DNA from: Hornefia porci
GTDB taxonomy: Bacteria > Bacillota > Clostridia > Peptostreptococcales > Anaerovoracaceae
Direction of reading: 5' to 3'
Assembly (NCBI RefSeq): GCF_001940235.1
Contig: NZ_MJIE01000001.1
Location: 2,108,001-2,172,000, forward strand
Length of the DNA stretch: 64,000 nt
Shown here: piece after piece, positions 1 to 31,624 of the stretch
Numbering within the stretch: position 1 is the first letter of the stretch
Layout: the number at the start of each line of letters is the position of its first letter
Notes under the pieces: model-generated
Databases searched by the model: none
Told to the model about the DNA's origin: nothing
The model's input: only the letters and a program-made list of their open reading frames with translations
Position numbers and translations under genes: made by a program

Positions 1-558
1 AAGGGTGACAAGACCTATGATACAGACGAGTACCCCAGACGGGACGCGTCCTATGAAGCACTGGCGAAGCTGAAGCCCACTTTCAAGGAGGGCGGAACTG
101 TGACAGCCGGTAACGCGTCGGGCATGAACGACGCCGCGTCAGGAGTGATTCTGATGTCTGAGGATCAGGCCCGGGCTCTGGGAGTTCCGATTATGGCGAG
201 GATCGTTTCTGTCGCTACGACCGGAGTCGCACCGGAGATGATGGGAATCGGCCCGATCAGCGCAAGCCACAGCGCCCTGGCGAAGGCCGGAATGACCATG
301 GATCAGATGGATCTGGTAGAGATTAATGAAGCGTTTGCGGCGCAGTGTCTGGCGTGCCAGAAGACTCTGGGAATCCCGGACGAAAAACTGAATGTCAACG
401 GCAGCGGTATTTCACTGGGACATCCTGTGGGAGCAACCGGTTCCCGGCTTGTGATCACCCTGATGTACGAGCTGAAGAGAAGAAAGCAGAAATACGGACT
501 TGCCACACTGTGCGCCGGAGGCGGCATGGGAACGGCAGTTATCATTGAAATGGCGTAA
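1..558 (+). CDS. Acetyl-CoA acetyltransferase (thiolase), C-terminal part
   Basis: This is the last 185 residues of a thiolase; the N-terminal part with the nucleophilic cysteine lies before the window. The frame is open from base 1. Visible family motifs are NEAFAAQ, GHPVGATG (catalytic His) and the C-terminal CAGGGMGTA loop with the second catalytic Cys. Thiolases condense two acetyl-CoA to acetoacetyl-CoA or cleave it, in the cytoplasm. Here it heads, or sits within, a fermentation operon with CoA-transferase, 3-hydroxyacyl-CoA dehydrogenase and crotonase genes, so cleavage or formation of acetoacetyl-CoA is the likely job. A second complete thiolase lies at 56541-57728. The family is certain; chain-length preference cannot be read from this fragment. 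Confidence 0.95.
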   Translation, partial: KGDKTYDTDEYPRRDASYEALAKLKPTFKEGGTVTAGNASGMNDAASGVILMSEDQARALGVPIMARIVSVATTGVAPEMMGIGPISASHSALAKAGMTMDQMDLVEINEAFAAQCLACQKTLGIPDEKLNVNGSGISLGHPVGATGSRLVITLMYELKRRKQKYGLATLCAGGGMGTAVIIEMA

Positions 559-616: not shown

Positions 617-1999
617 ATGAGTAAGGATTTTGGATTGTTCGCACCGGTAAACGGTATCTATGATGAATACAAAAGCAAGCTGATTACGGCGAAGGAAGCC
701 GCGTCAATGGTCAAATCGGGCATGTATCTCCATTTCGGCCTGATGAACGGAATTGTCGTGGACATTCAGGAAGCCCTGGCCGAAAGAACCGAGGAACTGG
801 AAGACGTTACGATTATACAGACTATGTGGTCCTACGGGGAAAAACCTCCTGTATTGAAAAATGACCCCCATGCGGAGCACTTCCACTGCGCCAGCACTCA
901 CCTGACCAAGCAGGAGCGCGCAGCGAACAAAGACGGAAACTTCTGGTTCCTGCCGGTTCAGTTCAGAGAGAACCCGAAACTGCACAGAGAGTGCAGACCT
1001 ACTTATGACATTGCATTCCTGCAGGTCGCGCCGATGGATGCTTCAGGAAACTTCAATATCGGACCGCAGGTTGCAGAATACTGGGGTGTTTTCCAGAACT
1101 GCGACAAGATCATCGTCGAAGTGAATGAGAATCTGATTGTGACGCACGGCGTAGGGAACTATCTGAATATCAATCAGGTGGATTACATCGTGGAAGGCAG
1201 CAATACTCCAATGCCGACTATCGGCTCCAAAGTGCCGACTGATATCGACAGGAGAATGGCGGAAAACATCGTGGAGCATCTGGAGGACGGAGCGACTCTG
1301 CAGCTGGGGAACGGAGCGTTCCCGAACTGTGTGGGAAGCCTGATTGTGGACTCGAACCTGAAGGATCTGGGATGTCATACGGAAATGTTCGTAGATGCGT
1401 ATCTCAAACTCTATGAGGCGGGTAAACTCACCAATATGAAGAAGGGAATCAACCAGGGGAAGATGACATTCACCTTCGCGCAGGGAACTGAGGATCTTTA
1501 CAAATGGATGGACAACAATCCGATGATGATGTCCGCTCCTGTGGATTATGTCAATAATGTAGATGTCATTGCGTCAAACCACAAAATGACTTCAATCAAC
1601 AGCTGTCTGCAGATTGATCTGTTCGGGCAGGTGAATTCCGAGTCCTCCGGACTGCAGCACATCGGCGGAACCGGCGGCCAGCTTGACTTTGTGATGGGAG
1701 CCTTCCAGTCGGAAGGCGGCAAGAGCTTCCTTTGTACTCCCTCAACACGCACGCTGAAGGACGGGACAGTGGAATCTCTGATCATGCCGACGCTGCCGCA
1801 GGGATCCATCGTATCGACACCGAGAAGCGGCGTGCACTATATCGTGACAGAATACGGCGCGGTCAACCTGAAGGGTAAGACTACCTATGAAAGAGCGAAG
1901 CTGCTGATTTCCGTCGCTCACCCGGATTTCAGAGCCGAACTGGAGGAAGAGGCGCAGAAGATGGGTATCTGGCCGACGAGCAGCAAGGTGATGAAATAA
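617..1999 (+). CDS. Acyl-CoA:carboxylate CoA-transferase (acetyl-CoA hydrolase/transferase family)
   Basis: The 460-residue protein moves CoA between acyl groups through a glutamyl-CoA thioester. Visible marks are the HTEMF segment, where Glu256 aligns with the catalytic glutamate of 4-hydroxybutyrate and butyryl-CoA CoA-transferases, and the glycine-rich GGTGGQLDF segment that binds the acyl-CoA. The ATG at 617 is chosen because it follows an AGGAAA-type site and gives the usual family length; an in-frame extension to 500 lies over the thiolase end and is not needed. Next to 4-hydroxybutyryl-CoA dehydratase (6919-8400) a 4-hydroxybutyrate:acetyl-CoA transferase role (AbfT-like) is attractive. 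Butyrate or a 2-hydroxyacid as substrate is equally possible, so substrate is inference. Confidence 0.88.
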   Translation: MSKDFGLFAPVNGIYDEYKSKLITAKEAASMVKSGMYLHFGLMNGIVVDIQEALAERTEELEDVTIIQTMWSYGEKPPVLKNDPHAEHFHCASTHLTKQERAANKDGNFWFLPVQFRENPKLHRECRPTYDIAFLQVAPMDASGNFNIGPQVAEYWGVFQNCDKIIVEVNENLIVTHGVGNYLNINQVDYIVEGSNTPMPTIGSKVPTDIDRRMAENIVEHLEDGATLQLGNGAFPNCVGSLIVDSNLKDLGCHTEMFVDAYLKLYEAGKLTNMKKGINQGKMTFTFAQGTEDLYKWMDNNPMMMSAPVDYVNNVDVIASNHKMTSINSCLQIDLFGQVNSESSGLQHIGGTGGQLDFVMGAFQSEGGKSFLCTPSTRTLKDGTVESLIMPTLPQGSIVSTPRSGVHYIVTEYGAVNLKGKTTYERAKLLISVAHPDFRAELEEEAQKMGIWPTSSKVMK

Positions 2000-2092
2000 C
2001 CCGAATCCCTGAGCGCAGGCATCAGAGAATGAATGCAACAGAACCTGAACAGAGCGGATTCGCAATGAATACAGAAAGCGTTGGTGACAATT

Positions 2093-2950
2093 ATGATTAA
2101 AAAAATAGGTGTAGTCGGAGCCGGTATGATGGGCGCGGAAATCGCACTTTGCTTCGCGAGGAGCGGGTACGAGACCATGCTGAACGACATCAGCCTGGAA
2201 TTCGCGGAACGCGGAAAACAGAAAATTGCGGGCGTGATGGACAAAAACATCAGAAAAGGCAGAGCGACGGAGGAAGATAAACAGGCAGCTCTGGACAGAG
2301 TGCATCCTACCGGAGCGCTGGAGGACCTTGCAGACTGCGATCTGATCATTGAAGCGGTACTGGAGGTCTGGGATGTGAAAAAGGACGTCCATCAGACGCT
2401 GGATAAGCTGTGCAAGGGCAGCACGATTATCGCGAGCAACACATCGTCCATGTCGATCAGCAAGCTGGCATCCTGCGTCGGACCGGACAGAAAAGGGCAG
2501 TTTATCGGAACTCACTTCAATTCGCCGGCGAGTGTGATGAAACTGGTGGAAGTGATCCCCGGACTTCTGACAGAGGATGAAACGGCAGAGGAGGTTACAG
2601 AACTGCTGGAAGAGATCGGCAAGGTGCCGGTCCGGGTGAAGGATGTGGTCGGCTTCGGGCTGAACAGGATTTTTCACTGCATGTACGGCGAGGCATGCCG
2701 CCTCGTTGAGGAGGGCGTCTGCTCGGTAGAGGACGTGGACAAAATATGCAGGTATGGTCTGGGACATCCTATGGGAATTTTCGCGCTGCTGGATATCACC
2801 GGACATGATCTGAACCTTGAGGTGGATGAAATTCTGTTCGAGGCGTACGGCGACCGCTTCCGCCCGAGTCCGCAGCTCCACCGTCTGGTGGATTCCGGAA
2901 GGCTCGGACGGAAGACCGGCGCCGGGTTCTATGACTATGAGGAGAAATAA
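2093..2950 (+). CDS. hbd: 3-hydroxyacyl-CoA dehydrogenase (3-hydroxybutyryl-CoA dehydrogenase)
   Basis: This 285-residue NAD(P)-dependent enzyme interconverts 3-hydroxybutyryl-CoA and acetoacetyl-CoA. The Rossmann motif GAGMMGAEIA is at residues 9-18 and the C-terminal helical domain is present, ending in GRKTGAGFYDY, a family hallmark. The usual HFFNPAPVMKLVE segment reads HFNSPASVMKLVE: the catalytic His and the following Glu are kept but the neighbours differ. The ATG at 2093 with GGTGA upstream is preferred over a TTG at 2081. The gene lies 93 bp after the CoA-transferase and 2 bp before the crotonase, in one operon with them. Length matches clostridial Hbd. Confidence 0.92.
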   Translation: MIKKIGVVGAGMMGAEIALCFARSGYETMLNDISLEFAERGKQKIAGVMDKNIRKGRATEEDKQAALDRVHPTGALEDLADCDLIIEAVLEVWDVKKDVHQTLDKLCKGSTIIASNTSSMSISKLASCVGPDRKGQFIGTHFNSPASVMKLVEVIPGLLTEDETAEEVTELLEEIGKVPVRVKDVVGFGLNRIFHCMYGEACRLVEEGVCSVEDVDKICRYGLGHPMGIFALLDITGHDLNLEVDEILFEAYGDRFRPSPQLHRLVDSGRLGRKTGAGFYDYEEK

Positions 2951-2952
2951 CC

Positions 2953-3720
2953 ATGGCAGGAGTCAGACTGACGAAAAAAGACGACGGTATCCTGGTTCTC
3001 AGCATAGACAGGCCGGAGGCACTTAATGCGTTGAATCGCGGCATCGTAGATGAGATTGACGAGAAAATCGATGAAATAGAAAAGGATTCGGGCGCGCGCT
3101 GCCTGATCCTGCACAGCGATAAAAATTTTGCCGCCGGCGCGGACATTAAAGCGATGGCCGAATGTGACGAGGAAGGCGCAAAAGCGTTCGCATTTTCTCC
3201 CACATATAACAGGCTGGCAGCCTTGAGGATACCCACTGTTTCCGCAATCGAGGGCTATGCCCTCGGCGGCGGAATGGAACTCGCCCTTGCGACGGATATA
3301 CGAATCGCCGGCGAAGGTGCGAAAATGGGTTTTCCGGAAGTGTCTCTGGGAATCTTCCCCGGAGCCGGAGGAACCATTCGCGCCCCGAGGCTGATCGGAG
3401 CCGCATTCGCTAAGGAACTTATCTTTTCCGGAGAGGCGGTCACAGCCGAAAGGGCGCTGCAGATGGGACTGGTGAACCGCGTAGTGCCGGATGATCGGGT
3501 CTTCGCGGAGGCATACCGCCTTGCGGGTAAAATCGCGAGACGGGGGCCTGTTGCGGTCCGGAGGGCTAAGGAGGTAATCGACCGGGGAACCGCTATGAAC
3601 GTGGAATCCGGAATCGAGCTTGAGGCGGCGGAATGGGCGAAGCTGTTCAATACCCGTGACCAGAAGGAAGGAATGCAGGCGTTTATCGCAAAAAGAAAAC
3701 CGGAATTTGAGAACCGTTGA
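2953..3720 (+). CDS. crt: Enoyl-CoA hydratase / crotonase
   Basis: The 255-residue crotonase-fold protein hydrates crotonyl-CoA to 3-hydroxybutyryl-CoA. Both catalytic glutamates of enoyl-CoA hydratases are present: one in the GGGMELALATDIRIAG segment and one in PEVSLGIFPGAGGT. The oxyanion-hole segment AAGADIKAM is near residue 60. The start codon lies 2 bp after the hbd stop, so the two genes are translationally linked. In this operon it is the step between crotonyl-CoA, which the dehydratases can supply, and 3-hydroxybutyryl-CoA. It could run in either direction. Confidence 0.93.
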   Translation: MAGVRLTKKDDGILVLSIDRPEALNALNRGIVDEIDEKIDEIEKDSGARCLILHSDKNFAAGADIKAMAECDEEGAKAFAFSPTYNRLAALRIPTVSAIEGYALGGGMELALATDIRIAGEGAKMGFPEVSLGIFPGAGGTIRAPRLIGAAFAKELIFSGEAVTAERALQMGLVNRVVPDDRVFAEAYRLAGKIARRGPVAVRRAKEVIDRGTAMNVESGIELEAAEWAKLFNTRDQKEGMQAFIAKRKPEFENR

Positions 3721-3743
3721 GTATATTGACAGGGAGGAAAAAT

Positions 3744-4979
3744 ATGTCTGAGGAAGGTAAGAAAACATCATCCCGGCTGTTGAAGGAAATACAGGATAAT
3801 ACCTATGCCAGAGCCTGGGAAGCAAAAGAAAAAGGCGAACCGGTGGTGTGGGCGACCTCCATCTGTCCTGACGAGCTGCTGAATGCAATGGATCTGGCGA
3901 CGGTGTATCCGGAGAATCAGGCCGGAGTCATCGGCGCCCGGAAGGAGGCAATGAAATTCATCGATCAGGCGGAGGGCGTCGGATACGGTCCGGACACCTG
4001 CTCCTACGCGAGAGTGAACATGGGCTATGTGGATCTGCAGCAGTCGGATTCTCAGGATATTCCGCTTCCCGACCTGATTTTTTCCAGCACAAATATTTGT
4101 TACACCGTACAGAAATGGTATGAAAATCTGTCGAAAAAGCTGAATATCCCGATGATTCTCTTCGACATGCCGTTCAACCATGAGTACGAGGTGACCGATG
4201 AAGCGACCGCGTACATCCGTGCGCAGCTTGAACATGCGATCACCCAGCTGGAGGAGTTCACCGGACGGAAGATGGATTACGATAAGCTTGCCCACGCGAT
4301 GGAGATCAACAATGAGACCTGCGAGTGGTGGAAAAAGGCAACGGATATGGGACGTTTCCGCCCGTCGCCGCTGGACGGCTTCAAGATGTTCAACTATATG
4401 GCTCTGATGGTGGCGAACCGCAGTTTCGAGGACAGCCGCGACTGCTTCCGTCTCTGGTACGAGGAGCTGGAGCAGAGGAAGGCCGAAGGGAAAGGCCCGT
4501 GGAGCAGCGCCGAGGAGCAGTACCGGATCATCTGGGACGGAATCGCCTGCTGGCCGCATCTTTCCACAACCTACAAGCTGCTGAAGAAATACGGCATCAA
4601 CATGGTGACCTCCACTTATCCCCAGAGCTGGTATAAGGTTTATGAAACTAACGATCTGGACGGCATGGCCAGAAGCTATACCGGAAATTACGCCAACCGC
4701 AATCTGGATTTCGGGGAAACGAGTATGGAAGAGCGGATAAAGAATTTCGATATCGACGGCGTTCTGTTCCACACGAATCGCAGCTGTAAGCTGATGGACT
4801 TCCGGACCTATGAGGTGCAGCGGCGCATTCTCGCCAAGACAGGATGCCCATCGGTGGTGTTCGACGGCGACCAGACGGATCCCCGGGTCTTTTCCGAGGG
4901 CCAGTATGAGACGAGAGTCCAGGCGCTGATGGAGATGATGGACAAGTACAAAGAGCAGAAGAGAAAGGGGGAACTGTAA
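3744..4979 (+). CDS. 2-hydroxyacyl-CoA dehydratase, alpha subunit
   Basis: The 411-residue protein belongs to the HgdA/FldB/HadB/LcdA family. It forms a heterodimer with the next gene product and removes water from an (R)-2-hydroxyacyl-CoA by a ketyl-radical mechanism after ATP-driven one-electron activation. Cysteines that could bind the [4Fe-4S] cluster sit in the segments DTCSYARV, TNICYTV and NRSCKLMD. Length matches the HadB/FldB type (about 406-408) better than HgdA (477). ATG 3744 follows a GGGAGG site; an upstream TTG in frame is not needed. The stop overlaps the beta-subunit start by one base. The substrate (2-hydroxybutyryl-, 2-hydroxyglutaryl-, lactyl- or 2-hydroxyisocaproyl-CoA) cannot be told from sequence. 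Confidence 0.88.
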   Translation: MSEEGKKTSSRLLKEIQDNTYARAWEAKEKGEPVVWATSICPDELLNAMDLATVYPENQAGVIGARKEAMKFIDQAEGVGYGPDTCSYARVNMGYVDLQQSDSQDIPLPDLIFSSTNICYTVQKWYENLSKKLNIPMILFDMPFNHEYEVTDEATAYIRAQLEHAITQLEEFTGRKMDYDKLAHAMEINNETCEWWKKATDMGRFRPSPLDGFKMFNYMALMVANRSFEDSRDCFRLWYEELEQRKAEGKGPWSSAEEQYRIIWDGIACWPHLSTTYKLLKKYGINMVTSTYPQSWYKVYETNDLDGMARSYTGNYANRNLDFGETSMEERIKNFDIDGVLFHTNRSCKLMDFRTYEVQRRILAKTGCPSVVFDGDQTDPRVFSEGQYETRVQALMEMMDKYKEQKRKGEL

Positions 4980-6112
4980 TGAGTTACCGGGATATCATAG
5001 CGGAGCTGACCGAGGCGGGGCTCCATCCGGCGCGTACGATTGCTGCGACGCAGAAGGAAACAGGAAAAGAACTCGTCGGATGTGTTCCGTATCACACTCC
5101 GGATGAAGTGATTTATGCCGCGGGAGCGGTTCCCGTCGGACTCTGGGGCGGAGCTCCCGAATTCAAGCTGGCGGACCGCTACCTTCAGAGCTTCTGCTGC
5201 GGTCTGCTGCGGGCGGTTGTGGAATATTCCCTGAACGGGACGTACGACTGCCTGAAAGCGGTTGTGGTTCCGACCTTCTGCGACTCCATGAAATGTACGC
5301 TTGAGAACCTGAAGCTTTCAATGCCGGAAGGTATTCCCGTGTTTGGAATGTCCTACGGACAGCAGCGGAAAATCAAGGCGGGGAGAGATTTCACGATCAG
5401 CGAGTACAAAAGAATCCGCCGGGAGATGGAAAAACTTCTGGGCGTTGTCATCACCGATGAGAAGGTGGAAGCGGCGTTCGGGATATATGAGGATTATCGT
5501 GCGGCGATGAGGCGGTTTGAGCGGGAGGCGGCACGGCATCCGGAAATCGTGTCTTCCCGTGAGAGAATGATGATCATCAAGGCGGGTCTGTTCATGGACA
5601 AGGCTTTGTACACAAAGAAAATCGAGCAGATCTGTCAGGGACTGGAGGAAGAGCCGGAGGGAACCTTCGACGGCAAGAGAGTAGTCATTACCGGGATCAT
5701 GGCAGAGCCGCCGGAAATCTTGGAAATTTTCGATGAAAGCGGACTGGCTGTTGTTGCGGACGAAATGTCGCTGGGCTCCCGACTCTGGAGAGCACCTGCG
5801 AGAAACGATGTGGACGACATTTACGAGCGTATGGCGTACCGCTATGCCGATACGGAGGCAGACACGTTCATGTACGAGCCTGAGAAAAAGCGGGGACAGT
5901 ATATGCTGAAACTGGCCGAGCAGTACAATGCGGACGCGATCGTGGTGATGATGATGAAGTTCTGTGATCCGGAGCAGTATGATTATCCGATCTACAAGGC
6001 AGAGCTGGAGGCCGCCGGGATCCCGTTCCTGTATATGGAGGTGGATCAGCAGACGACGGGATTCGAGCAGCTGCGGACACGGATTCAGAGCTTCTGTGAG
6101 ATGCTGATGTAG
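4979..6112 (+). CDS. 2-hydroxyacyl-CoA dehydratase, beta subunit
   Basis: The 377-residue partner of the preceding subunit has the length usual for HgdB/HadC/FldC (374-379). Candidate cluster-binding cysteines lie in VGCVPYHTP near the N-terminus, SFCCGLL, PTFCDSMKC and MKFCDPEQYD near the C-terminus. The segment HTPDEVIYAAGAVPVGLWGG is typical of the family. The start codon overlaps the alpha-subunit stop by one base, which favours equal expression. The activator gene follows after 22 bp. Together the three genes form a complete, self-contained 2-hydroxyacyl-CoA dehydratase system. Confidence 0.9.
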   Translation: MSYRDIIAELTEAGLHPARTIAATQKETGKELVGCVPYHTPDEVIYAAGAVPVGLWGGAPEFKLADRYLQSFCCGLLRAVVEYSLNGTYDCLKAVVVPTFCDSMKCTLENLKLSMPEGIPVFGMSYGQQRKIKAGRDFTISEYKRIRREMEKLLGVVITDEKVEAAFGIYEDYRAAMRRFEREAARHPEIVSSRERMMIIKAGLFMDKALYTKKIEQICQGLEEEPEGTFDGKRVVITGIMAEPPEILEIFDESGLAVVADEMSLGSRLWRAPARNDVDDIYERMAYRYADTEADTFMYEPEKKRGQYMLKLAEQYNADAIVVMMMKFCDPEQYDYPIYKAELEAAGIPFLYMEVDQQTTGFEQLRTRIQSFCEMLM

Positions 6113-6134
6113 TGGCAGGGCGAGGAGATAACAA

Positions 6135-6908
6135 ATGTTTTTAGGCGTTGATATAGGGTCCTCATCGTCCAAGGTCGCGATTCTGGATGGTGATAAGAAT
6201 TTGAGGGCGGTTCAGATTATCAATCTCGGAACCGGAACTGACGCGCCGGTGGAAGCCCGGCGCCGCGCTCTGGAGGAGGCCGGGATCACAGAGGCAGAAA
6301 TCGAAGCCGCGGTTGTTACGGGCTACGGCCGGATCAACTACAAAAAAGCGGACAGGCAGATTACGGAGATCAGCTGCCATGCGAAGGGCGTCACTTATCT
6401 TGCACCGAACGCCAGAACGATTGTGGACATCGGAGGACAGGACGCCAAGGTCATCAAGCTGGGTGAAGACGGCAAGGTCCGGAACTTTGTGATGAATGAA
6501 AAATGCGCGGCCGGAACCGGACGTTTCCTGGAGGTGATGGCCCGCGTGCTGGGATGCGAGCTTGGGGAGTTATCCGATCTTGCGGAAAAGTCCACCAGAG
6601 AGGTTGCGATCAGCAGCGTCTGCACAGTGTTTGCAGAGAGTGAAGTGATTTCCAGACTGGCGTCGGGAGAGACGACCGCAGATGTGGCGAGAGGCGCGCA
6701 TGTGGCGATTTCAAAGCGCGTGGCCGGATTGTGCAACCGGATCCAGTATGAGCTGGAAATTGTAATGACCGGAGGGGTCGCGCTGAACGGCAATGTTGTA
6801 GACGCTCTTTCTATAGAGCTTGGCTATCCTGTGCATGTGGTGCCTCACTGCCAGGCGGCCGGTGCGATCGGCGCGGCGTTGTTTGCTTATGAATCGAAGA
6901 GAAAGTAG
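6135..6908 (+). CDS. 2-hydroxyacyl-CoA dehydratase activator (archerase, BadF/BadG/HgdC family)
   Basis: The 257-residue ASKHA-fold ATPase injects one electron into the dehydratase at the cost of ATP. The nucleotide-binding segment GVDIGSSSSKVAIL lies at the N-terminus. The two cysteines that hold the [4Fe-4S] cluster between homodimer subunits are in NEKCAAGTGRF and SSVCTVFAESEV. Phosphate-binding segments DIGGQDAK and TGGVALNGNVV are present. Length matches HgdC/HadI (260-266). The gene lies immediately downstream of the two dehydratase subunits, as in known clusters, and 10 bp before the 4-hydroxybutyryl-CoA dehydratase gene. Confidence 0.94.
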   Translation: MFLGVDIGSSSSKVAILDGDKNLRAVQIINLGTGTDAPVEARRRALEEAGITEAEIEAAVVTGYGRINYKKADRQITEISCHAKGVTYLAPNARTIVDIGGQDAKVIKLGEDGKVRNFVMNEKCAAGTGRFLEVMARVLGCELGELSDLAEKSTREVAISSVCTVFAESEVISRLASGETTADVARGAHVAISKRVAGLCNRIQYELEIVMTGGVALNGNVVDALSIELGYPVHVVPHCQAAGAIGAALFAYESKRK

Positions 6909-6918
6909 AGGTGTGAGA

Positions 6919-8400
6919 ATGCCGTTAATGACAGGAGAACAATATATAGAAAGTCTGCGCAGACTGAAGACCAGAGTCTACATGTTCGGCGAGCAGGTGG
7001 GGAACTGGGTGGATCATCCGATCATCCGCCCGTCCATCAACAGCGTTGCGATGACCTACGATCTGGCGCAGGATCCGGAGTACGCGGACCTGATGACCGC
7101 GAAATCCTCCCTGACCGGCAAGACGATCAACCGGTTCACCCATCTGCACCAGAGCACGGACGATCTTGTTCGCAAGGTGAAGATGCAGAGGCTTCTGGGA
7201 CAAAAGACGGGCGCGTGCTTTCAGCGCTGTGTGGGGATGGACGCGTTCAACGCGGTGTTCTCCACGACCTATGAGCTGGACGAGGCGAGGGGCACAAAGT
7301 ATCACGAGAACTTTGTGAAGTTCCTGGAGATGATCCAGGACGAGGATCTGGTGGTGGACGGCGCGATGACGGACCCCAAGGGAGACCGGGGTAAAGCGCC
7401 CCACGCGCAGCCGGACAAAGATCTGTTTCTGCGGATCGTGGAGCGCCGGCCGGACGGGATTGTGGTGCGCGGAGCCAAAGCGCATCAGACCGGAGCGGTC
7501 AATTCCCACTGGCACCTGATCATGCCCACCATCGCCATGCGGGAGGCGGACGCGGATTACGCGGTATCCTTCGCCTGCCCCAGTGATGCGGAGGGGCTGT
7601 TCATGGTATACGGCCGCCAGTCCTGCGACACCCGGAAGCTGGAGGATCCCTGCTCCGTCGATGTGGGGAACAGCCGGTTCGGCGGACAGGAGGCGCTGGT
7701 GGTCTTCGACGATGTGTTCATTCCCAATGAGTATGTGTTCATGGCCGGGGAATATGAGTTCGCGGGCATGATGGTGGAACGGTTCGCCGGATACCACCGG
7801 CAGAGCTACGGCGGCTGCAAGGTGGGCGTCGGAGACGTTGTCATCGGCGCGGCGGCGCTGGCGGCGGAATACAACGGAGCGGAAAAGGCTTCTCACATCA
7901 AGGACAAGCTTATCGAGATGACTCATCTGAATGAGACGCTGTTCTGCTGCGGCATCGCCTGCTCGGCTGAAGGGCATCCCACCAAGGCGGGAAACTACCA
8001 GATCGATCTGCTGCTGGCGAATGTCTGCAAACAGAATGTGACGCGCTTTCCGTACGAAATCGTCCGTCTGGCGGAGGACATTGCCGGAGGGTTGATGGTA
8101 ACGATGCCGTCCCAGAAGGATTTTGAATCGGAGCTGCCGGCGGGAAGAGGAGGAGAATCCGTTGGTGAGATCTGCCGGAAGTACTTTGCGACCCGGGAAG
8201 ATGTGGATGTTGAGGACCGTCAGAAGGTGCTCCGGCTGCTGGAGAACCTGTGTCTGGGAACCGCCGCGGTGGGGTACCGCACAGAATCCATGCACGGTGC
8301 GGGATCGCCTCAGGCGCAGCGCATCATGATTTCCCGGCAGGGGAATATTCAGGGAAAGAAAGACCTTGCCAGAGCGATCGCCGGAATAGAAAAAAGATAG
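6919..8400 (+). CDS. abfD: 4-hydroxybutyryl-CoA dehydratase / vinylacetyl-CoA delta-isomerase
   Basis: The 493-residue FAD and [4Fe-4S] enzyme converts 4-hydroxybutyryl-CoA to crotonyl-CoA. Cys100, Cys104, His293 and Cys300 correspond, with an offset of one, to the cluster ligands Cys99, Cys103, His292 and Cys299 of the Clostridium aminobutyricum enzyme, so the unusual His-ligated cluster is conserved. ATG 6919 with GAGGTG upstream is chosen; an in-frame GTG lies 6 bp earlier. In GABA or 4-hydroxybutyrate fermenters AbfD acts with 4-hydroxybutyrate dehydrogenase, CoA-transferase, crotonase, Hbd and thiolase; all these activities have candidates here. It is the last gene of the operon. Confidence in the family is very high. 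Confidence 0.95.
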   Translation: MPLMTGEQYIESLRRLKTRVYMFGEQVGNWVDHPIIRPSINSVAMTYDLAQDPEYADLMTAKSSLTGKTINRFTHLHQSTDDLVRKVKMQRLLGQKTGACFQRCVGMDAFNAVFSTTYELDEARGTKYHENFVKFLEMIQDEDLVVDGAMTDPKGDRGKAPHAQPDKDLFLRIVERRPDGIVVRGAKAHQTGAVNSHWHLIMPTIAMREADADYAVSFACPSDAEGLFMVYGRQSCDTRKLEDPCSVDVGNSRFGGQEALVVFDDVFIPNEYVFMAGEYEFAGMMVERFAGYHRQSYGGCKVGVGDVVIGAAALAAEYNGAEKASHIKDKLIEMTHLNETLFCCGIACSAEGHPTKAGNYQIDLLLANVCKQNVTRFPYEIVRLAEDIAGGLMVTMPSQKDFESELPAGRGGESVGEICRKYFATREDVDVEDRQKVLRLLENLCLGTAAVGYRTESMHGAGSPQAQRIMISRQGNIQGKKDLARAIAGIEKR

Positions 8401-8432
8401 AAATGCGGTGCGGAAGCGTCGGAATGCATGAA

Positions 8433-8510
8433 GAGGGGCTGTCTCACAGTTGATTTAAATATCAGCTGGAGCGACGGCTCCTTCTTTTTGATAGTTGTGC
8501 GACAGCCCTC
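8433..8510 (+). repeat. MITE-like inverted repeat enclosing a terminator hairpin
   Basis: GAGGGGCTGTCTCACA at the left end is matched by TGTGCGACAGCCCTC at the right end, allowing one gap and one mismatch. GGCTGTC-type ends are common at termini of clostridial insertion sequences. Inside, GGAGC-GAC-GGCTCC is followed by TTCTTTTTG, which could act as the terminator of the operon ending at 8400. No clear target duplication is seen. Confidence 0.5.
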
Positions 8511-8859: not shown

Positions 8860-10023
8860 ATGTCGATGTATTATTATTTACCCGCGCGAAATGTTTTTGG
8901 CGAAGGAGCTGTAAAGGAGTGCGGCCGTCTGCTGGCCACCATGCATGCGAAAAAAGCGATGATTGTCACTGACGCATTTCTCGCCACGCAGCCGATGGCC
9001 GCAGATATTCAGGGCTATCTGAAGGATGCGGGAATCGATTCGGTGATTTTCGGCGGAGCAGAGCCGAATCCGAAGGATACGAATGTTGAAGCGGGACTGA
9101 AGGTTTTCAACAAAGAGCAGTGCGATGCTATCGTCACTCTCGGCGGCGGATCTTCTCATGACTGCGGAAAGGGAATCGGCCTTGTGGCCGCCAACGGCGG
9201 AACAATTCATGATTATGAAGGAGTTGATAAAGCGGCCATCAGTCCGGTGCCGATCCTTGCGATTAATACGACGGCGGGAACCGCATCGGAAATTACCCGG
9301 TTCTGCATCATTACCGATACCAGGAGAAAGGTGAAGATGGCCATTCTGGACTGGAGAGTCACTCCGGATATCTCCATCAACGACCCGGAGCTTATGATTG
9401 GCATGCCGCCGTCGCTGACCGCTTCAACCGGAATGGACGCGCTTACTCATGCGATTGAGGCCTATGTTTCCACGATGGCGACTCCGATGACGGACGCCAC
9501 TGCGCTTCTGGCGATTACGATGATCACGCAGTACCTTCCGAAAGCGGTGGCGAACGGCGAATACATGAAGGCGAGAGACCGAATGGCCTACGCGCAGTAT
9601 CTGGCCGGCGCTGCGTTTAATAACGCTTCTCTCGGATATGTCCATGCGATGGCTCATCAGCTGGGAGGCTTTTACAATCTGCCCCATGGCGTCTGCAATG
9701 CGATTCTGCTGCCGTATGTGGAGGAGTTCAATATTATCGGAAACCTGAACCGCTTCAGAGATATCGCGAGAGCGATGGGTGAAAAAGTGGACGGGTTGTC
9801 CACGGATGATGCGGCAGTGAAGGCGATTCGGGCAATCAGGCGGCTGAGCTGTCAGGTCGGTATTCCGGCGAACCTGAAGGAGCTGGGCGTCCGGCGGGAG
9901 GATTTCGATATCCTGGCTGAGAACGCCATGAAGGATGCCTGCGCGGCGACGAACCCGCGGAAGGCGACAAAGGAACAGATTATCGATATCTTCGAGAAGG
10001 CGTATGAGGGCGCGGCGCGGTAG
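8860..10023 (+). CDS. Iron-containing (group III) alcohol dehydrogenase, possible 4-hydroxybutyrate dehydrogenase
   Basis: The 387-residue NAD(P)-dependent dehydrogenase has the family NAD motif GGGSSHDCGKG (residues 95-105) and all four iron ligands: Asp193, His197, His262 and His276. These match the positions of 1,3-propanediol dehydrogenase. GAAGGGAG lies 12 bases before ATG 8860. The group includes 4-hydroxybutyrate dehydrogenase (succinate semialdehyde reduction), butanol/ethanol dehydrogenases and 1,3-propanediol dehydrogenase, and sequence alone does not separate them. The position right after abfD makes 4-hydroxybutyrate dehydrogenase a reasonable guess. A strong terminator follows. 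Confidence 0.9.
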   Translation: MSMYYYLPARNVFGEGAVKECGRLLATMHAKKAMIVTDAFLATQPMAADIQGYLKDAGIDSVIFGGAEPNPKDTNVEAGLKVFNKEQCDAIVTLGGGSSHDCGKGIGLVAANGGTIHDYEGVDKAAISPVPILAINTTAGTASEITRFCIITDTRRKVKMAILDWRVTPDISINDPELMIGMPPSLTASTGMDALTHAIEAYVSTMATPMTDATALLAITMITQYLPKAVANGEYMKARDRMAYAQYLAGAAFNNASLGYVHAMAHQLGGFYNLPHGVCNAILLPYVEEFNIIGNLNRFRDIARAMGEKVDGLSTDDAAVKAIRAIRRLSCQVGIPANLKELGVRREDFDILAENAMKDACAATNPRKATKEQIIDIFEKAYEGAAR

Positions 10024-10046
10024 CGCCCTCTCGCCCTCTGCTTCAT

Positions 10047-10090
10047 CCATCGGGCTGCCTTCACCGGCAGCTCCGATGGTTTATTTCTTG
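10047..10090 (+). terminator. Intrinsic terminator after the alcohol dehydrogenase
   Basis: CCATCGG+GCTGCC pairs with GGCAGC+CCGATGG around a six-base loop with one bulged T. A T-rich tail (TTTATTTCTTG, starting at 10080) follows. It lies 23 bases after the stop codon. Confidence 0.85.
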
Positions 10091-10413
10091 TTTTTATTTA
10101 CTTCTTTTTCAAGTGTTTTTACCGTGTCCAAATATGCTTCCTCAACCGGCGAAAGGGTCTGTACCTGCTCCCCTGTACTGCTAAGTACTTTATCTAATTG
10201 CTGTACATAGTCGCTCATGTGCATCAGATTATGACGCATCGCCTGAATTTCTGCGAAATCAAAATATCCGGAAACCAGATTGTTTAGTATCTTCAGCTCA
10301 TCTTCATCCAGATAATTTTTTGCAATGCTAATATCGGCCCTCGCAGGGAAATCCCCTTTCCGGGTTATAATAGGTCATTTCTCTTGAAACTGTCCTATAA
10401 TATTGGTCTGCTC
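10081..10413 (-). pseudogene. Remnant of a RhuM-family (virulence RhuM/Fic-associated) gene
   Basis: Read on the minus strand, the last roughly 85 codons ending at 10081 encode a segment with IAKNYLDEDELKILNN and YFDFAEIQAM, close to the conserved C-terminal part of RhuM-family proteins. Upstream pieces in shifted frames (EQTNII; VSREMTYYN) resemble family N-terminal and middle segments, but the central YNLDVIISVGYRV region is deleted and stop codons interrupt the frame. The stretch is more AT-rich than its neighbours, as expected for a decayed mobile-element cargo gene. RhuM genes are often found beside restriction systems and on genomic islands. The family call is from memory of its motifs and moderate in confidence. 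Confidence 0.55.
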
Positions 10414-10424
10414 ATTAAACCTCG

Positions 10425-10943
10425 TCAGCGCTCGATTCCGTCCCGGGCTTCTACGCCCGCTTCATAATAGTGGCGGATCTCCTTCATTTCGGTGACCAGG
10501 TCTGCCTTCTCCAGCAGCCATTCCGGTGCGTAGCGTCCGGTCATGACCAGCTCGGTGCCGGAGGGCTTTGCCTCCAGAATGTCTTCCAGGTCTTCTCGCG
10601 TGATCAGATTGAAATACAGCGCGATGAATATCTCATCCAGAATCACCAGATCACAGCTTTCGGAGCGCAGTATCTCCAGCGCACGCTTTACGCCGTCACG
10701 GGCGGCCCGGATATCGGGAATTCCCGCGTCACGGTCCACGATGCAGCCCATGCCGAACAACTCGACCTGAATTTCCGGAATACGCTCCTTCAGAATGCCG
10801 ATTTCGTGGTATTCCATGCTTTTCATAAACTGCCCGAGATAAACCTGAAGACCTGCGCCGGCCGCCCGAAGGGCCAGGCCTAGGGCAGCTGTGGTTTTCC
10901 CCTTGCCGTTGCCGGTATAAATCTGAAAATATCCTTTGTTCAT
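10425..10943 (-). CDS. cobO: Cob(I)yrinic acid a,c-diamide / cobalamin adenosyltransferase (CobO/BtuR type)
   Basis: The 172-residue cytoplasmic enzyme transfers the adenosyl group of ATP to cob(I)alamin or its precursors. The atypical P-loop GNGKGKTTAALGLALRAAG is at residues 10-28 and the conserved LVILDEIFIAL segment around residue 105. The start at 10943 has a perfect AGGAGG site. No cobalamin riboswitch or other cobalamin gene is visible nearby, so it may serve salvage. Its 5' side is filled by imperfect GC-rich tandem repeats (10961-11080). Confidence 0.92.
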   Translation of the reverse strand: MNKGYFQIYTGNGKGKTTAALGLALRAAGAGLQVYLGQFMKSMEYHEIGILKERIPEIQVELFGMGCIVDRDAGIPDIRAARDGVKRALEILRSESCDLVILDEIFIALYFNLITREDLEDILEAKPSGTELVMTGRYAPEWLLEKADLVTEMKEIRHYYEAGVEARDGIER

Positions 10944-10960
10944 GCTGCGTCCTCCTCGTG

Positions 10961-11080
10961 TTGTGTGTCGTGTCTGCGATGTGGTGCGCGCATCTCGGCG
11001 CCATGTGTCGCGTCTGCGATGCTCTGCGTGCATCCCGGCGTTGTGCGCTGTGCGCCGCGGTGCTGGCGATGCGGTGTGTG
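10961..11080. repeat. Imperfect GC-rich tandem repeat, about 40-bp period
   Basis: The TGTCTGCGAT-type core recurs at 10971 and 11011 (period 40), with a more diverged third copy near 11062. The tract lies in the 5' region of the cobO gene. No protein-coding use is evident in either strand. Together with 11081-11235 it fills the 292-base gap between the two divergent genes. Confidence 0.6.
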
Positions 11081-11235
11081 CCCGTACGTGAGGCTGTTTT
11101 TTTGTACATCACAAAGTATACCACAAAAAAATTATTTTGACTGATGTATACACTTATCGGGGAGGGTTTTGTGCTATAATGGAAATGTTATTTTGAAATC
11201 GCGGGCGGAATGGAACGCTGTGAAAGGGTATAAGG

Positions 11236-12042
11236 ATGCATTTAAATATCGATGGCTATGAAATTAATTATACAATGACCGGAGCGGGGGAGCAGACTCT
11301 GGTGATCCTGCAGGGCTGGGGCACGGAGCTGACGGTGTATGATTCCGTCGCGGCCTGTGTATCAGACCGGTACCGCGTGGTGCAGTTTGATTTCCCCGGA
11401 TTCGGAAAGAGTACGGAGCCGGCGGAGCCCTGGTCGGTGGAGGATTACGCTCAGTTTTTCATTAAATTCATGGATGCGCTGCAGATTCGCAGGGCGTCGC
11501 TTCTGGGGCATTCCTACGGCGGACGGGTCATCATCCGGCTGGCGGCGAAGGAGAGTCTGCCCTTTGAGATTGACAGAATCGTTCTGGTAGACAGCGCCGG
11601 CGTGCTTCCGGAGAAAACGGCGAAGCAGAAATGGAGCGTTCGCCGGTATAAATTCCTGAAGAAAATAGTCAGCATGAAGCTGGCGCAGGCGATCTGTCCG
11701 GAGCTCATCGAGGAGTGGCGGAACAGTCAGGGGTCTGCGGATTACCGGAACGCCACGCCGATCATGCGGCAGTGCCTTGTGAAGGCTGTCAACGAGGATC
11801 TGACGCCTCTGATGCCGAAAATCCGGCAGGATACGCTGCTGATCTGGGGGGATCAGGACGATGCGACGCCGCTTTCGGACGCGAAAATCATGGAAGAAAG
11901 GATTCCGGAATCGGGGCTGGCGGTGATCCACGGAGCGGGCCATTACTGCTTTCTGGAGCAGCCGCAGGTATTCCGGCGGATTATGCAGTCATATTTTCAG
12001 ACAGAGGATACAGACAGAAAACAGATAGAAGAGAATCAATAG
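11236..12042 (+). CDS. Alpha/beta hydrolase
   Basis: The 268-residue alpha/beta-hydrolase-fold protein carries the nucleophile elbow GHSYGG (Ser near residue 94), a catalytic-acid region at GDQDDATPL and a late His in HGAGHYCFLEQP. No signal peptide is present. TATAAT at 11175-11180 with a TG extension is a likely -10 element. It is followed within 16 bp by a membrane MurF-like gene and then by a D-Ala-D-Ala ligase gene, a grouping that suggests a cell-wall-linked esterase or peptidase-like role. The substrate is unknown. Confidence 0.85.
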   Translation: MHLNIDGYEINYTMTGAGEQTLVILQGWGTELTVYDSVAACVSDRYRVVQFDFPGFGKSTEPAEPWSVEDYAQFFIKFMDALQIRRASLLGHSYGGRVIIRLAAKESLPFEIDRIVLVDSAGVLPEKTAKQKWSVRRYKFLKKIVSMKLAQAICPELIEEWRNSQGSADYRNATPIMRQCLVKAVNEDLTPLMPKIRQDTLLIWGDQDDATPLSDAKIMEERIPESGLAVIHGAGHYCFLEQPQVFRRIMQSYFQTEDTDRKQIEENQ

Positions 12043-28579: not shown

Positions 28580-28837
28580 ATGGAAAAGAGAGTCGCTATG
28601 CTTGCGATCGTTGTAGAGGATAACGAACGGACGGAGGAGCTGAATCATGTGCTTCATGAGTACAGCGAGTACATTATCGGAAGAATGGGTCTGCCCTATC
28701 GGGACCGCAGTATTTCCCTGATCAGCATCGCAATTGACGGACCGGCCGACGCGATCAGCGCCCTTTCCGGAAAACTCGGACAGATCCCGGGGGTTTCGGC
28801 AAAGGCTGTATACGCAAAGCTGCCGGAGGACGCGTGA
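28580..28837 (+). CDS. TM1266-family putative iron-only hydrogenase system regulator
   Basis: The 85-residue protein has the ferredoxin-like fold of the NikR C-terminal/TM1266 family: a VAMLAIVVED first strand, HVLHEYSEYIIGRMGLPYRDR, and ISLISIAIDGPADAISALSGKLGQIPGVSAKAVY split across the last two strands. Family members are regularly found with HydE/HydG/HydF and are annotated as hydrogenase-system regulators, although they lack an obvious DNA-binding domain. GGAGG precedes ATG 28580. The stop overlaps the HydE GTG start (GTGA), so expression is coupled. Confidence 0.88.
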   Translation: MEKRVAMLAIVVEDNERTEELNHVLHEYSEYIIGRMGLPYRDRSISLISIAIDGPADAISALSGKLGQIPGVSAKAVYAKLPEDA

Positions 28838-29943
28838 ATCGCTTCTCTGTCGCAGCAGAGCCGGATGCGGCCGGCATACGGATTCGAGCCCTGCTGGACA
28901 GGCTGGAGCGGGAGCACAGCCTCAGCCGGGATGAATGGGTCTTTCTGTTTGAACATCGGAATGCGGAAAGTCTGGAATATCTGAAGCAGAAGGCCCGGGC
29001 CGTCGCTGACCGGTGTTTCGGGAAGGATATCTACACCCGCGGACTCATCGAATTTACCAACTACTGCAGAAATGACTGCCTCTACTGCGGAATCAGGCGA
29101 AGCAACCGGAATGCGGAACGCTACCGTCTGACCCGGGAGGAGATCCTGCAGTGCTGTGAGGACGGATATGCGCTGGGCTTCCGGACCTTTGTGCTCCAGG
29201 GCGGCGAAGACGCGTCGTATTCGGATGAGGATATGGTCAGAATCGTCCGGAGTATCAAAGCCGGATTCCCCGACTGTGCGGTGACGCTGTCTGTCGGGGA
29301 AAAAAGCCGTGATTCATACCTGCGTTTCTTTGAAGCCGGAGCGGACCGGTATTTGCTTCGGCACGAGACTGCGGATTTCGAGCATTACCGGCGGCTGCAC
29401 CCCCCGGAGCTTTCCCCGGAGCACCGAAGGGAATGCCTGTGGAATCTGAAGGAAATCGGCTATCAGGTCGGAACCGGATTCATGGTCGGAGCACCGGGAC
29501 AGACGGCGGAATGTCTGGCGGAGGACATGCTGTTTATCCGCGAGCTGGAGCCTCATATGGTCGGAATAGGACCCTTTGTGCCCCATCATGAAACGCCCCT
29601 GGCGAAGGAGCCGGGAGGCTCGGTGGAGTTGACTTTGTGGTGCATAGGCGTGCTCCGCCTCATGCTCCCGCAGGCGCTGATCCCCGCAACGACAGCCCTT
29701 GGAACGATTGCGCCGGACGGACGGGAGCAGGGGATTCTCGCCGGGGCCAATGTGGTGATGCCGAATCTGTCGCCGGTGGCGGTACGGAAGAAATATGAGC
29801 TTTATGACAACAAAATCTGTACAGGCGAGGAGGCTGCGGAGTGCCGCTTCTGCCTGGCAGGGAGAATGGAACGGATCGGGTACCGCATCGCGGTATCCAG
29901 AGGAGATCATCCGTCGATAAGAAAGGAAGATACAAATGTATGA
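28834..29943 (+). CDS. hydE: [FeFe]-hydrogenase maturase HydE (radical SAM)
   Basis: The 369-residue radical SAM enzyme helps build the 2Fe subcluster of the H-cluster. The [4Fe-4S] motif CX3CX2C is CRNDCLYC (Cys78, Cys82, Cys85), followed by GIRRSNRNAERYRL and the glycine segment LQGGEDASY typical of HydE. The GTG start at 28834 overlaps the preceding stop. The next gene, HydG, overlaps by 8 bp. It acts with HydG and HydF; no hydrogenase structural gene lies in the window. Confidence 0.96.
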   Translation: MNRFSVAAEPDAAGIRIRALLDRLEREHSLSRDEWVFLFEHRNAESLEYLKQKARAVADRCFGKDIYTRGLIEFTNYCRNDCLYCGIRRSNRNAERYRLTREEILQCCEDGYALGFRTFVLQGGEDASYSDEDMVRIVRSIKAGFPDCAVTLSVGEKSRDSYLRFFEAGADRYLLRHETADFEHYRRLHPPELSPEHRRECLWNLKEIGYQVGTGFMVGAPGQTAECLAEDMLFIRELEPHMVGIGPFVPHHETPLAKEPGGSVELTLWCIGVLRLMLPQALIPATTALGTIAPDGREQGILAGANVVMPNLSPVAVRKKYELYDNKICTGEEAAECRFCLAGRMERIGYRIAVSRGDHPSIRKEDTNV

Positions 29944-31351
29944 TATGATGTCGCCGCGCGCAGAGGAATTCATTGACCACGAGGAAATTCTGAAGTGTCT
30001 TGAGTACGGCGAGAGGAACAAAGACAACCGGGAGCTGATTGACGAAATCCTCGAGAAGGCGCGGCTCCGCAGGGGACTTTCCCATAAAGAGGCGATCGTG
30101 CTCCTGAACTGTGAACTGGAGGACAAAAATCAGGAAATTTACGCTCTGGCGGAGCAGATAAAAAAGGACTTTTACGGAAACCGCATCGTGATGTTCGCGC
30201 CGCTGTATCTTTCCAACTACTGTGTGAACGGCTGTGAATACTGTCCCTACCACCAGCGGAACAAAGATATCCCGCGGAAAAAACTGACGCAGCAGGAAAT
30301 CCGGGACGAGGTGATCGCTCTGCAGGATATGGGACACAAAAGGCTGGCCATCGAAGCCGGAGAGGATCCGGTGAACAATCCCATCGAGTACATCCTGGAG
30401 TCCATCAAAACGATCTACAGCATAAAACACAAGAACGGCGCAATCCGCCGTGTGAATGTGAACATCGCCGCTACGACGCCTGAGAATTACAGGAAACTGA
30501 AGGACGCAGGAATCGGAACGTATATTTTGTTCCAGGAAACCTATCACAAGGAAAACTACGAACGGCTGCACCCCACGGGACCCAAGCACGACTATGCCTG
30601 GCACACGGAGGCGATGGACCGGGCCATGGACGCCGGCATTGACGATGTGGGGCTGGGCGTGCTGTTCGGCCTGAACAATTACAAATATGATTTTGTCGGG
30701 ATTCTGATGCATGCGGAGCATCTGGAGGGGGCGAAGGGATGCGGCCCGCACACCATCAGTGTTCCGAGGGTGCGCCCGGCGGATGATATCGATCCGGAGG
30801 TGTTCGACAACAGCATTTCTGACGAGACCTTTGCGAAAATCGTCGCCTGCATCCGCATCGCGGTGCCGTACACCGGGATGATCGTCTCCACCCGGGAAAG
30901 CCAGAAAACCCGGGAGCGCGTGCTGCATCTGGGGATTTCGCAGATCAGCGGAGGCTCCAGAACCAGTGTCGGCGGATATGTGAACGAGGAGCGTCACGAT
31001 GAAACCGCGCAGTTCGATGTCAACGATCTGCGGACGCTGGACGAGGTGGTGAACTGGCTGATGAGGATGGGCTACGTCCCCAGCTTCTGCACGGCGTGTT
31101 ACCGCGAGGGGCGCACCGGCGACCGGTTCATGTCCCTTCTGAAGAGCGGTCAGATTGTCAACTGCTGTCATCCCAACGCACTCATGACCCTGAAGGAGTA
31201 TCTGGAGGATTATGCCTCTCCGGGAACAAAGGAAATCGGGGACGCGCTGATCGCGCGCGAGCTCGACGTAATCACAAACCCCGCAGTGAGGGAAAAGTGC
31301 GAAGATTACCTGAACAACATTCACACAGGCAAAAGAGATTTCAGATTCTAA
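29936..31351 (+). CDS. hydG: [FeFe]-hydrogenase maturase HydG (tyrosine lyase)
   Basis: The 471-residue radical SAM enzyme cleaves tyrosine to p-cresol and dehydroglycine and makes the CO and CN ligands of the H-cluster. The N-terminal CX3CX2C is CVNGCEYC (Cys96, Cys100, Cys103). The HydG-specific C-terminal cluster motif CX2CX22C is present in FCTACYREGRTGDRF and the following QIVNCC. That motif separates HydG from the thiamine enzyme ThiH. It overlaps hydE by 8 bp and is followed by a 273-bp repeat-filled gap before hydF. Confidence 0.97.
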   Translation: MYDMMSPRAEEFIDHEEILKCLEYGERNKDNRELIDEILEKARLRRGLSHKEAIVLLNCELEDKNQEIYALAEQIKKDFYGNRIVMFAPLYLSNYCVNGCEYCPYHQRNKDIPRKKLTQQEIRDEVIALQDMGHKRLAIEAGEDPVNNPIEYILESIKTIYSIKHKNGAIRRVNVNIAATTPENYRKLKDAGIGTYILFQETYHKENYERLHPTGPKHDYAWHTEAMDRAMDAGIDDVGLGVLFGLNNYKYDFVGILMHAEHLEGAKGCGPHTISVPRVRPADDIDPEVFDNSISDETFAKIVACIRIAVPYTGMIVSTRESQKTRERVLHLGISQISGGSRTSVGGYVNEERHDETAQFDVNDLRTLDEVVNWLMRMGYVPSFCTACYREGRTGDRFMSLLKSGQIVNCCHPNALMTLKEYLEDYASPGTKEIGDALIARELDVITNPAVREKCEDYLNNIHTGKRDFRF

Positions 31352-31624
31352 AACTGGGGCGCCGGCCGGGACGGCCGGGACATAATGACGCCGCGACGAC
31401 CTGCGACATGGGCGCGACGACGCGCCGACCTGCGCGACAGTACGCCGCGCTGACCTGCGACATGGGCGCGACGACGCGCCGACTTGCGCGGCAGTACACC
31501 GCGCGCCGCGTCGACCTGCGACAGGGCGTGACACCGCGCCGACTTGCACGGCAGTACGCCGCGCCGACGAAGGCTCGCGAAATCGGGATATACAAAAAGC
31601 CCCGGTGCACGACGGGAGGAATAT
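31352..31624. repeat. GC-rich imperfect tandem repeats between hydG and hydF
   Basis: A unit containing GACCTGCGACATGGGCGCGA begins at 31398 and recurs at 31452 (period 54) and, more diverged, near 31512. The core array spans about 31388-31568. Open frames through it are low-complexity and show no family resemblance. The hydF ribosome binding site (GGGAGGA) follows directly. Confidence 0.75.

Follow-up and report, generated by a model that had tools for sequence, protein, structure and literature searches.

Two radical dehydratases in one operon of Hornefia porci: gene content, recurrent pairing, and a tentative route to crotonyl coenzyme A

Gene content of the operon and identity of its dehydratases

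The window analyzed here is a 64,000-nucleotide stretch of the Hornefia porci genome (NCBI RefSeq assembly GCF_001940235.1, contig NZ_MJIE01000001.1, positions 2,108,001 to 2,172,000 of the forward strand), and it opens with an operon in which a two-subunit 2-hydroxyacyl-coenzyme A (CoA) dehydratase (subunits A and B) and its ATP-dependent activator (Act) are encoded ahead of 4-hydroxybutyryl-CoA dehydratase (AbfD). The two enzymes of this gut-type anaerobe are very different, both are oxygen-sensitive, and both are standard examples of difficult radical dehydrations. The initial annotation, made from the sequence alone, had described an operon with a CoA-transferase (CoAT), 3-hydroxybutyryl-CoA dehydrogenase (Hbd), crotonase (Crt), A, B, activator, and AbfD, and all of these genes are intact and on the plus strand. 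The operon is nevertheless larger than stated there and consists of thiolase (Thl), CoA-transferase, Hbd, crotonase, A, B, activator, and AbfD.

The thiolase (acetyl-CoA C-acetyltransferase; NCBIfam TIGR01930, 467 bits against a cutoff of 241) enters the window with its C-terminal part (positions 1 to 558, plus strand); its ATG, at position 11381 of the fetched locus L046 (L and G are our handles for loci and genomes), lies outside the window, 621 bp to the left of base 1. It is followed by a member of the butyryl-CoA:acetate/4-hydroxybutyrate CoA-transferase family (617 to 1999; TIGR03948, 489 bits, under the cutoff of 675; 3gk7, 260 bits), whose closest relative among the fetched loci is that of Emergencia timonensis L229 (69.7%). 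Next come Hbd (2096 to 2950; PF02737 and PF00725), crotonase (enoyl-CoA hydratase, 2953 to 3720; PF00378; NF004475, 257 bits, under the cutoff of 394), A (3747 to 4979), B (4979 to 6112), the activator (6135 to 6908), and AbfD (6922 to 8400). The genes are separated by 96 bp (CoAT/Hbd), 2 bp (Hbd/Crt), 26 bp (Crt/A), 22 bp (B/Act), and 13 bp (Act/AbfD), and A and B overlap by 1 bp. Gaps of 0 to 22 bp had been reported from crotonase to AbfD, which holds within the choice of A start: with the start at 3747 the crotonase/A gap is 26 bp, whereas an alternative TTG start at 3717 gives a longer A that overlaps crotonase.

Two HGD-D subunits, an activator, and retained cysteine motifs, which we take to be cluster ligands, place A, B, and Act in the 2-hydroxyacyl-CoA dehydratase superfamily. 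Against the HadBC structure 3o3m, A scored 371 bits and B 316 bits, A being 43% identical to HadB over 402 columns; B also matched PF06050 (289 bits), and the activator matched TIGR00241 (261 bits, cutoff 125), its cysteines lying within EKC and SSVC motifs. In a phylogeny of 80 rows (HadB plus 79 A proteins, with HgdAB, FldBC, and the characterized LcdAB outside the set), the window A fell in a 47-row group with support of 86/96 (not starred), rising to 99/98 once the long-branched L149 was added. This clade is apart from HadB, the other CaiB-linked enzymes, and the Pct-linked rows, with a weak fork (92/49) beside the last. The tree comparison was one on which the initial annotation had staked its interpretation (see below), and the position of A outside the clade of HadB and other CaiB-linked enzymes did not refute it. 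Identity of A/B with HadBC was rejected on the basis of NCBIfam equivalog scores under the cutoffs (A, 469 of 750 bits; B, 379 of 700 bits), the different clade, and the occurrence of a CaiB-type transferase at none of the 46 loci of the A clade.

H. porci has a sister A-B-activator cluster (L047), to which window positions 2093 to 6886 are 75.9% identical (blastn). The two A proteins are 92% identical, with a nonsynonymous divergence (dN) of 0.053 at a synonymous divergence (dS) of 1.06; dN is 0.160 for B and 0.220 for the activator. Recent gene conversion of the window A from L047 was rejected because dS is about 1. A from L047 and L048 are identical at the same level, and judged from these divergences the 92% identity reflects constraint in both comparisons. 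The window A is as constrained as its orthologue, which is consistent with the window and sister clusters sharing a substrate.

AbfD matched 1U8V with 910 bits over residues 2 to 489. The initial annotation was correct that the cluster ligands are conserved (C99, C103, H292, and C299, in CFQRC at 99 and YHRQSYGGC at 291), numbered as in Clostridium aminobutyricum AbfD. By its sequence, the window protein is a bona fide member of the 4-hydroxybutyryl-CoA dehydratase family.

Recurrence and assembly of the pairing

A protein search gave a count of 683 proteins at an E value of ≤1e-100. A was matched at ≤1e-85 in 81 of 349 family genomes, with full-length matches at either ≥53% or 37 to 47% identity; among 391 class-level genomes, G000 and G047 were accompanied only by matches of 37 to 47%. 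The clade set comprises 47 full-length A genes at 46 loci, including three genes in G047 and G044 and leaving out two partial matches. Its gene neighborhoods differ from those of 32 other loci, chosen for fetching rather than at random: CaiB-type transferases were found at 0/46 clade loci versus 19/32, AbfT-family CoA-transferases at 36/46 versus 3/32, thiolase at 33/46 versus 2/32, and tripartite ATP-independent periplasmic (TRAP) transporter genes at 15/46 versus 4/32. Its members are thus associated with thiolase and CoA-transferases of the AbfT type.

Eight of these 47 A genes have AbfD in their same-strand run: the window, L047, L048, L040 (E. timonensis), L049 (where AbfD is upstream of a regulator gene), L114, L117, and L132. 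The initial annotation knew of no described pathway with its gene set, and a search for the same gene order showed that the set is not unique, with A-B-activator plus AbfD in seven genomes of six genus codes, E. timonensis included. In a 41-row AbfD tree, the copies from L040, L042/L048, L047, and L114 cluster with L209, L210, and L132, L117 belongs to another lineage (4 rows, 100/99), and the window copy groups with L202 and L203. Approximately unbiased (AU) tests, on groups drawn from gene order after the tree had been seen and with L049 outside the tree, rejected single clades of the seven paired rows (p = 6.8e-7), of the window plus L040, L042/L048, L047, and L114 (p = 1.3e-4), and of the five copies with the layout II defined below (p = 2.3e-39). 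AbfD therefore appears to have joined A-B-activator more than once, from at least three AbfD lineages. The spacing between activator and AbfD is 13 bp in the window, 15 bp in L047, L048, and L114, 36 bp in L132, and 290 bp in L117. This repeated placement, next to a crotonase/Hbd/thiolase module, makes it very likely that both dehydratases work in a single pathway.

The window copy of AbfD is recent. The genome has three AbfD genes, one of them with the A-B-activator cluster at L047, and window positions 6908 to 8438 are 97.3% identical over 1531 bp (blastn) to L202 positions 9892 to 11421 (C1:1316392-1317921), a further AbfD locus on the same chromosome. Identity begins at the activator stop codon, and the two AbfD genes differ by a dS of 0.08 and a dN of 0.005. 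The L202 site looks older than the window site because relatives of the gene next to its AbfD also occur close to AbfD in G007 (92%) and in E. timonensis (76%). The window thiolase is nearest to that of L202 (86%, against 80% for E. timonensis), and the PAS/AAA+/HTH activator gene upstream of the thiolase is nearest to E. timonensis L229 (73%), where an activator-thiolase-CoAT block stands beside the A/B cluster. The operon thus looks assembled from an E. timonensis-like activator gene and CoA-transferase, an L202-like thiolase, an Hbd-Crt-A-B-Act block, and a pasted AbfD.

Two layouts are prominent in the A clade. Layout II is Acd-EtfB-EtfA-Thl-Hbd-Crt-A-B-Act-FabZ-like-CoAT, with or without AbfD, where Acd is an acyl-CoA dehydrogenase and Etf an electron transfer flavoprotein. 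Acd occurs in five of the eight AbfD-bearing runs, and that of L040, the one scanned, is AcrC-like. In L047 Acd is also present, beyond an IS110 element whose family transposase gene (17505 to 18716 of C1:1650001-1670000) lies between Acd and EtfB. Layout I has the order A-B-Act-Hbd-Crt-Thl-CoAT and also includes an iron-containing alcohol dehydrogenase (Fe-ADH) and an aminotransferase of class III. The aminotransferase is found in 13 of the 47 runs, of which seven have a 2-hydroxyacid dehydrogenase and none has AbfD or Acd. These runs usually also hold Hbd, Crt, and Fe-ADH; the run at L053 (145 to 10407) contains A-B-Act, Thl, CoAT, and an aminotransferase resembling gamma-aminobutyrate (GABA) transaminase, and is without AbfD or Acd. 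They would constitute a separate pathway.

Two other loci are of note. In L132 (10077 to 14745), which belongs to another genome, A-B-Act-AbfD follows a gene for a lipoprotein-like product; by eye, BKACE, TRAP, and Glx4 genes lie upstream and HrcA/GrpE/DnaK-like genes downstream, and the run has no CoA-transferase and no acyl-CoA dehydrogenase. In E. timonensis L211, the AbfD row at 9237 is a divergent homologue (57% to the window AbfD) found with a CaiB-type transferase, Thl, Hbd, Crt, Acd, and Etf, and it perhaps has another substrate or leaving group.

At the 5' border of the operon, the PAS/AAA+/HTH activator gene (L046 9768 to 11165) is followed by a -24/-12-like site, TGGCACggataATGCT (L046 11295 to 11310), which ends 70 bp ahead of the thiolase ATG. 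The site has one mismatch to the sigma-54 consensus; when the 209-bp gap that holds it was resampled 200 times with a Markov model, an equally good site arose in 1% of cases. Of 23 gaps downstream of PAS/AAA+ activator genes in the fetched loci, including loci outside the A clade, 18 contain a site with ≤1 mismatch and five, E. timonensis L040 included, do not. The promoter-like site and the adjacent activator gene together suggest sigma-54-type control. Downstream, an Fe-ADH gene (8860 to 10023, plus strand; PF00465; top NCBIfam model PRK09860, 524 of 581 bits; 4-hydroxybutyrate dehydrogenase model, 265 of 500 bits) is probably a separate transcription unit, since AbfD is followed by a terminator-like hairpin and T-run (8468 to 8490, plus strand), although the scan found such sites no rarer in shuffled sequence (10 in real sequence versus a mean of 9.4). 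Elsewhere in the window, three genes at 28834 to 32902 resemble those for the hydrogenase maturation proteins HydE, HydG, and HydF, and positions 60566 to 62281 encode a protein with long glutamine/proline-rich tandem repeats (both by eye).

Candidate substrates and routes to crotonyl-CoA

Gene neighborhoods favor a hydroxy or sugar acid as the substrate. Six layout II regions were traced into their flanks. Five of them (G000, G007, E. timonensis G340, G066, and G341) have TRAP genes together with a dehydratase of the GarD family and a KduD-like short-chain dehydrogenase/reductase, and four of these five have a 2-hydroxyacid dehydrogenase. An IlvD/EDD paralogue directly follows AbfD in G000 and G007; the clustered IlvD-like protein scores 494 bits, compared with 737 for the separate IlvD of the H. 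porci genome (cutoff 618). Neighboring genes for proteins of 581 and 145 amino acids were considered as glutaconyl-CoA decarboxylase subunits and rejected, as they encode an IlvD/EDD dehydratase and a FabA/FabZ-like protein. In the genome of H. porci, a 2-hydroxyacid dehydrogenase is found ∼8 kb from the cluster.

We tentatively propose a sigma-54-controlled catabolic operon in which both radical dehydratases contribute to a single route to crotonyl-CoA, most likely by acting in series on the same molecule; this is the reading we prefer, and it may well be wrong. A molecule with hydroxyl groups at both C-2 and C-4 would use both dehydratases and an acyl-CoA dehydrogenase in turn. A tetronate-type sugar acid, or another source, would be converted to 2-oxo-4-hydroxybutyrate and then 2,4-dihydroxybutyrate, which the CoA-transferase would activate to 2,4-dihydroxybutyryl-CoA. 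A/B, primed by the ATP-driven activator, would remove the 2-hydroxyl group to give 4-hydroxycrotonyl-CoA, an acyl-CoA dehydrogenase/Etf system encoded elsewhere would reduce this to 4-hydroxybutyryl-CoA, and AbfD would remove the 4-hydroxyl group to give crotonyl-CoA, which crotonase, Hbd, and thiolase would convert to acetyl-CoA. The presence of Acd in five of eight AbfD-bearing runs fits, as a series requires a reductase step. The initial conversions of D-threonate to 2-oxo-4-hydroxybutyrate and 2,4-dihydroxybutyrate are working chemistry in a synthetic pathway (PMC10079672). We infer the substrate, the order of steps, the regulation, and a common substrate for the window and sister clusters from gene content and sequence. 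It is possible, but doubtful, that the operon represents a fermentation new to science in anaerobes related to Emergencia, with a 2-hydroxyacyl-CoA dehydratase of the ketyl-radical kind and then AbfD acting on the same chain to convert sugar-acid-derived 2,4-dihydroxybutyryl-CoA to crotonyl-CoA, with the pairing assembled at least three times.

Several observations weigh against a series on a tetronate-derived acid. The window operon itself has no Acd/Etf, 2-hydroxyacid dehydrogenase, IlvD, or GarD, nor does the A-B-Act-AbfD run of L132; 39 of the 47 A genes have no AbfD in their run; and the association of AbfD with Acd gives a Fisher p of 0.018 with kinship ignored. The sixth layout II region (G034; L236 and L049) lacks TRAP, GarD, KduD, and 2-hydroxyacid dehydrogenase genes, the fetched stretches of L116, L125, and L050 have none of these either, L114 and L113 have only a 2-hydroxyacid dehydrogenase, L118 has only KduD- and GldA-like genes, and the IlvD/EDD link comes from two genomes of the same genus. 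Genes of the KduD and PRK10083 kinds point to C6 acids. In H. porci, the 2-hydroxyacid dehydrogenase is next to genes for an aminotransferase and an amino-acid carrier, so that an amino acid could also be the source, and with a 2-keto-3-deoxygluconate (KDG) kinase-like gene these flanks would suit the catabolism of uronates or amino acids. The residues in which the A clade departs from HadB give no fix on the substrate. PMC10079672 attributes significant D-threonate activity to two D-arabinonate dehydratases, not to the IlvD or UxaA enzymes tested, and cites other work for activity on L-threonate.

Convergence of the two enzymes, as in the initial annotation, is somewhat unlikely: A/B would act on (R)-2-hydroxybutyryl-CoA and AbfD on 4-hydroxybutyryl-CoA, with crotonyl-CoA as the common product for crotonase, Hbd, and thiolase. 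These products suit the operon without an extra reductase, lactyl-CoA dehydratase is known to dehydrate 2-hydroxybutyryl-CoA to crotonyl-CoA (PMC8473912), the CoA-transferase family includes 4-hydroxybutyrate CoA-transferases, and runs of A/B lacking AbfD mostly retain thiolase and Hbd. Repeated pairing bears out one element of that interpretation, a single pathway for both dehydratases, whereas its threonine/2-oxobutyrate feed fared poorly: the six PALP-fold genes of this 98% complete genome include no threonine dehydratase, methionine gamma-lyase and Fe-S deaminases not having been searched for. A genome scan with TIGR01127 gave nothing above the cutoff, and the six genes match cysteine synthase, OrtB, a TrpB-like protein, a D-cysteine desulfhydrase-like protein (under the cutoff), D-serine ammonia-lyase, and threonine synthase. 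Threonine was accordingly rejected as the obvious feed, and a threonine/2-hydroxybutyrate feed is weakly supported. Convergence is also disfavored by the position of A relative to the Pct-linked enzymes, from which it is separated by the weak fork, and by the neighbors in five of six sister regions, which point to imported hydroxy or sugar acids. The same neighborhoods could suit a different, possibly longer hydroxyacyl-CoA as the substrate of A/B (e.g., a 3-deoxy sugar acid esterified to CoA), with crotonase, Hbd, and thiolase shortening it to a C4 unit for AbfD. KduD-like, PRK10083-like, GldA-like, and KDG-kinase-like genes in the flanks, thiolase at 33 of 46 loci, and the presence in 11 of 47 runs of a FabA/FabZ-like gene whose product could perform a second dehydration all agree with this, but the clade includes no enzyme of known substrate and the C6-type neighbors may belong to an adjoining uronate operon, and we consider it unlikely.

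That AbfD and A/B are mere neighbors is harder to sustain, and we regard it as quite improbable. AbfD would have landed by recent duplication and would act in GABA/4-hydroxybutyrate breakdown, with A/B devoted to an unrelated acid, as the 97.3% copy, the 39 A genes without AbfD in their run, and the presence of AbfD in 32 of 37 clade genomes but within the A run in just seven would allow. AbfD from at least three lineages nevertheless stands beside the same module, the activator-AbfD spacing is short (13 to 36 bp) in all of the window, L132, L047, L048, and L114, though not in L117, and dN is far under dS in the recent copy. A 2-hydroxyglutarate pathway, in which A/B would form glutaconyl-CoA for decarboxylation to crotonyl-CoA, shares the enzyme superfamily and the product and is very improbable; it was rejected because no glutaconyl-CoA decarboxylase was recognizable in a PF01039 scan of the genome, whose only two matches are the carboxyltransferase pair of the fatty-acid operon in the window (AccD/AccA by eye).

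If the dehydratases act in series, as we prefer, anaerobes could convert acids of the threonate or erythronate type, which are breakdown products of vitamin C, to crotonyl-CoA, and 2-hydroxyacyl-CoA dehydratases would gain a new class of substrate. Even if they act in parallel, a pair that has been assembled repeatedly offers a natural experiment in operon building. The cultured E. timonensis SN18 makes the question of the pathway directly testable.

Comparison with known systems

AbfD and 2-hydroxyacyl-CoA dehydratases are each known; their combination is new, as would be the pathway if confirmed. We know of no described pathway that uses both dehydratases together. A literature search, with most subscription journals outside its coverage, found, among the papers examined, none placing both in one cluster; PMC9686372 names both but apart from each other.

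The (R)-2-hydroxyisocaproyl-CoA dehydratase of Clostridioides difficile (HadBC, with HadI) belongs to the same superfamily, has two subunits and an ATP-driven activator, and aligns over the full length, and A keeps the residues aligned with HadB S37 and E55, which we take to be catalytic. It differs in its clade, in the 43% identity of A, and in its link to CaiB-type transferases (0/46 versus 19/32 loci). Relatives of the Anaerotignum (Clostridium) propionicum lactyl-CoA dehydratase that are linked to Pct form another clade, by the weak fork and with the characterized sequence itself outside the tree. The threonine route described in PMC10053330 uses TdcB, a lactate dehydrogenase, Pct, and lactoyl-CoA dehydratase, and no threonine dehydratase was found in the present genome. 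The C. aminobutyricum AbfD (1U8V) shares the family, the ligand residues, and an operon with a CoA-transferase of the same family. Six relatives have AbfD-CoAT-ADH loci (L205, L206, L208, L213, L215, and L217), presumably GABA operons, with no A/B in the stretch, whereas the window AbfD is joined to A-B-activator. Finally, the gamma-butyrobetaine (bbu) pathway of E. timonensis operates in related bacteria and likewise involves elimination at C-4 to crotonyl-CoA, but its BbuA is acyl-CoA dehydrogenase-like, with about 10% identity to 4-hydroxybutyryl-CoA dehydratase, as given in PMC8364193.

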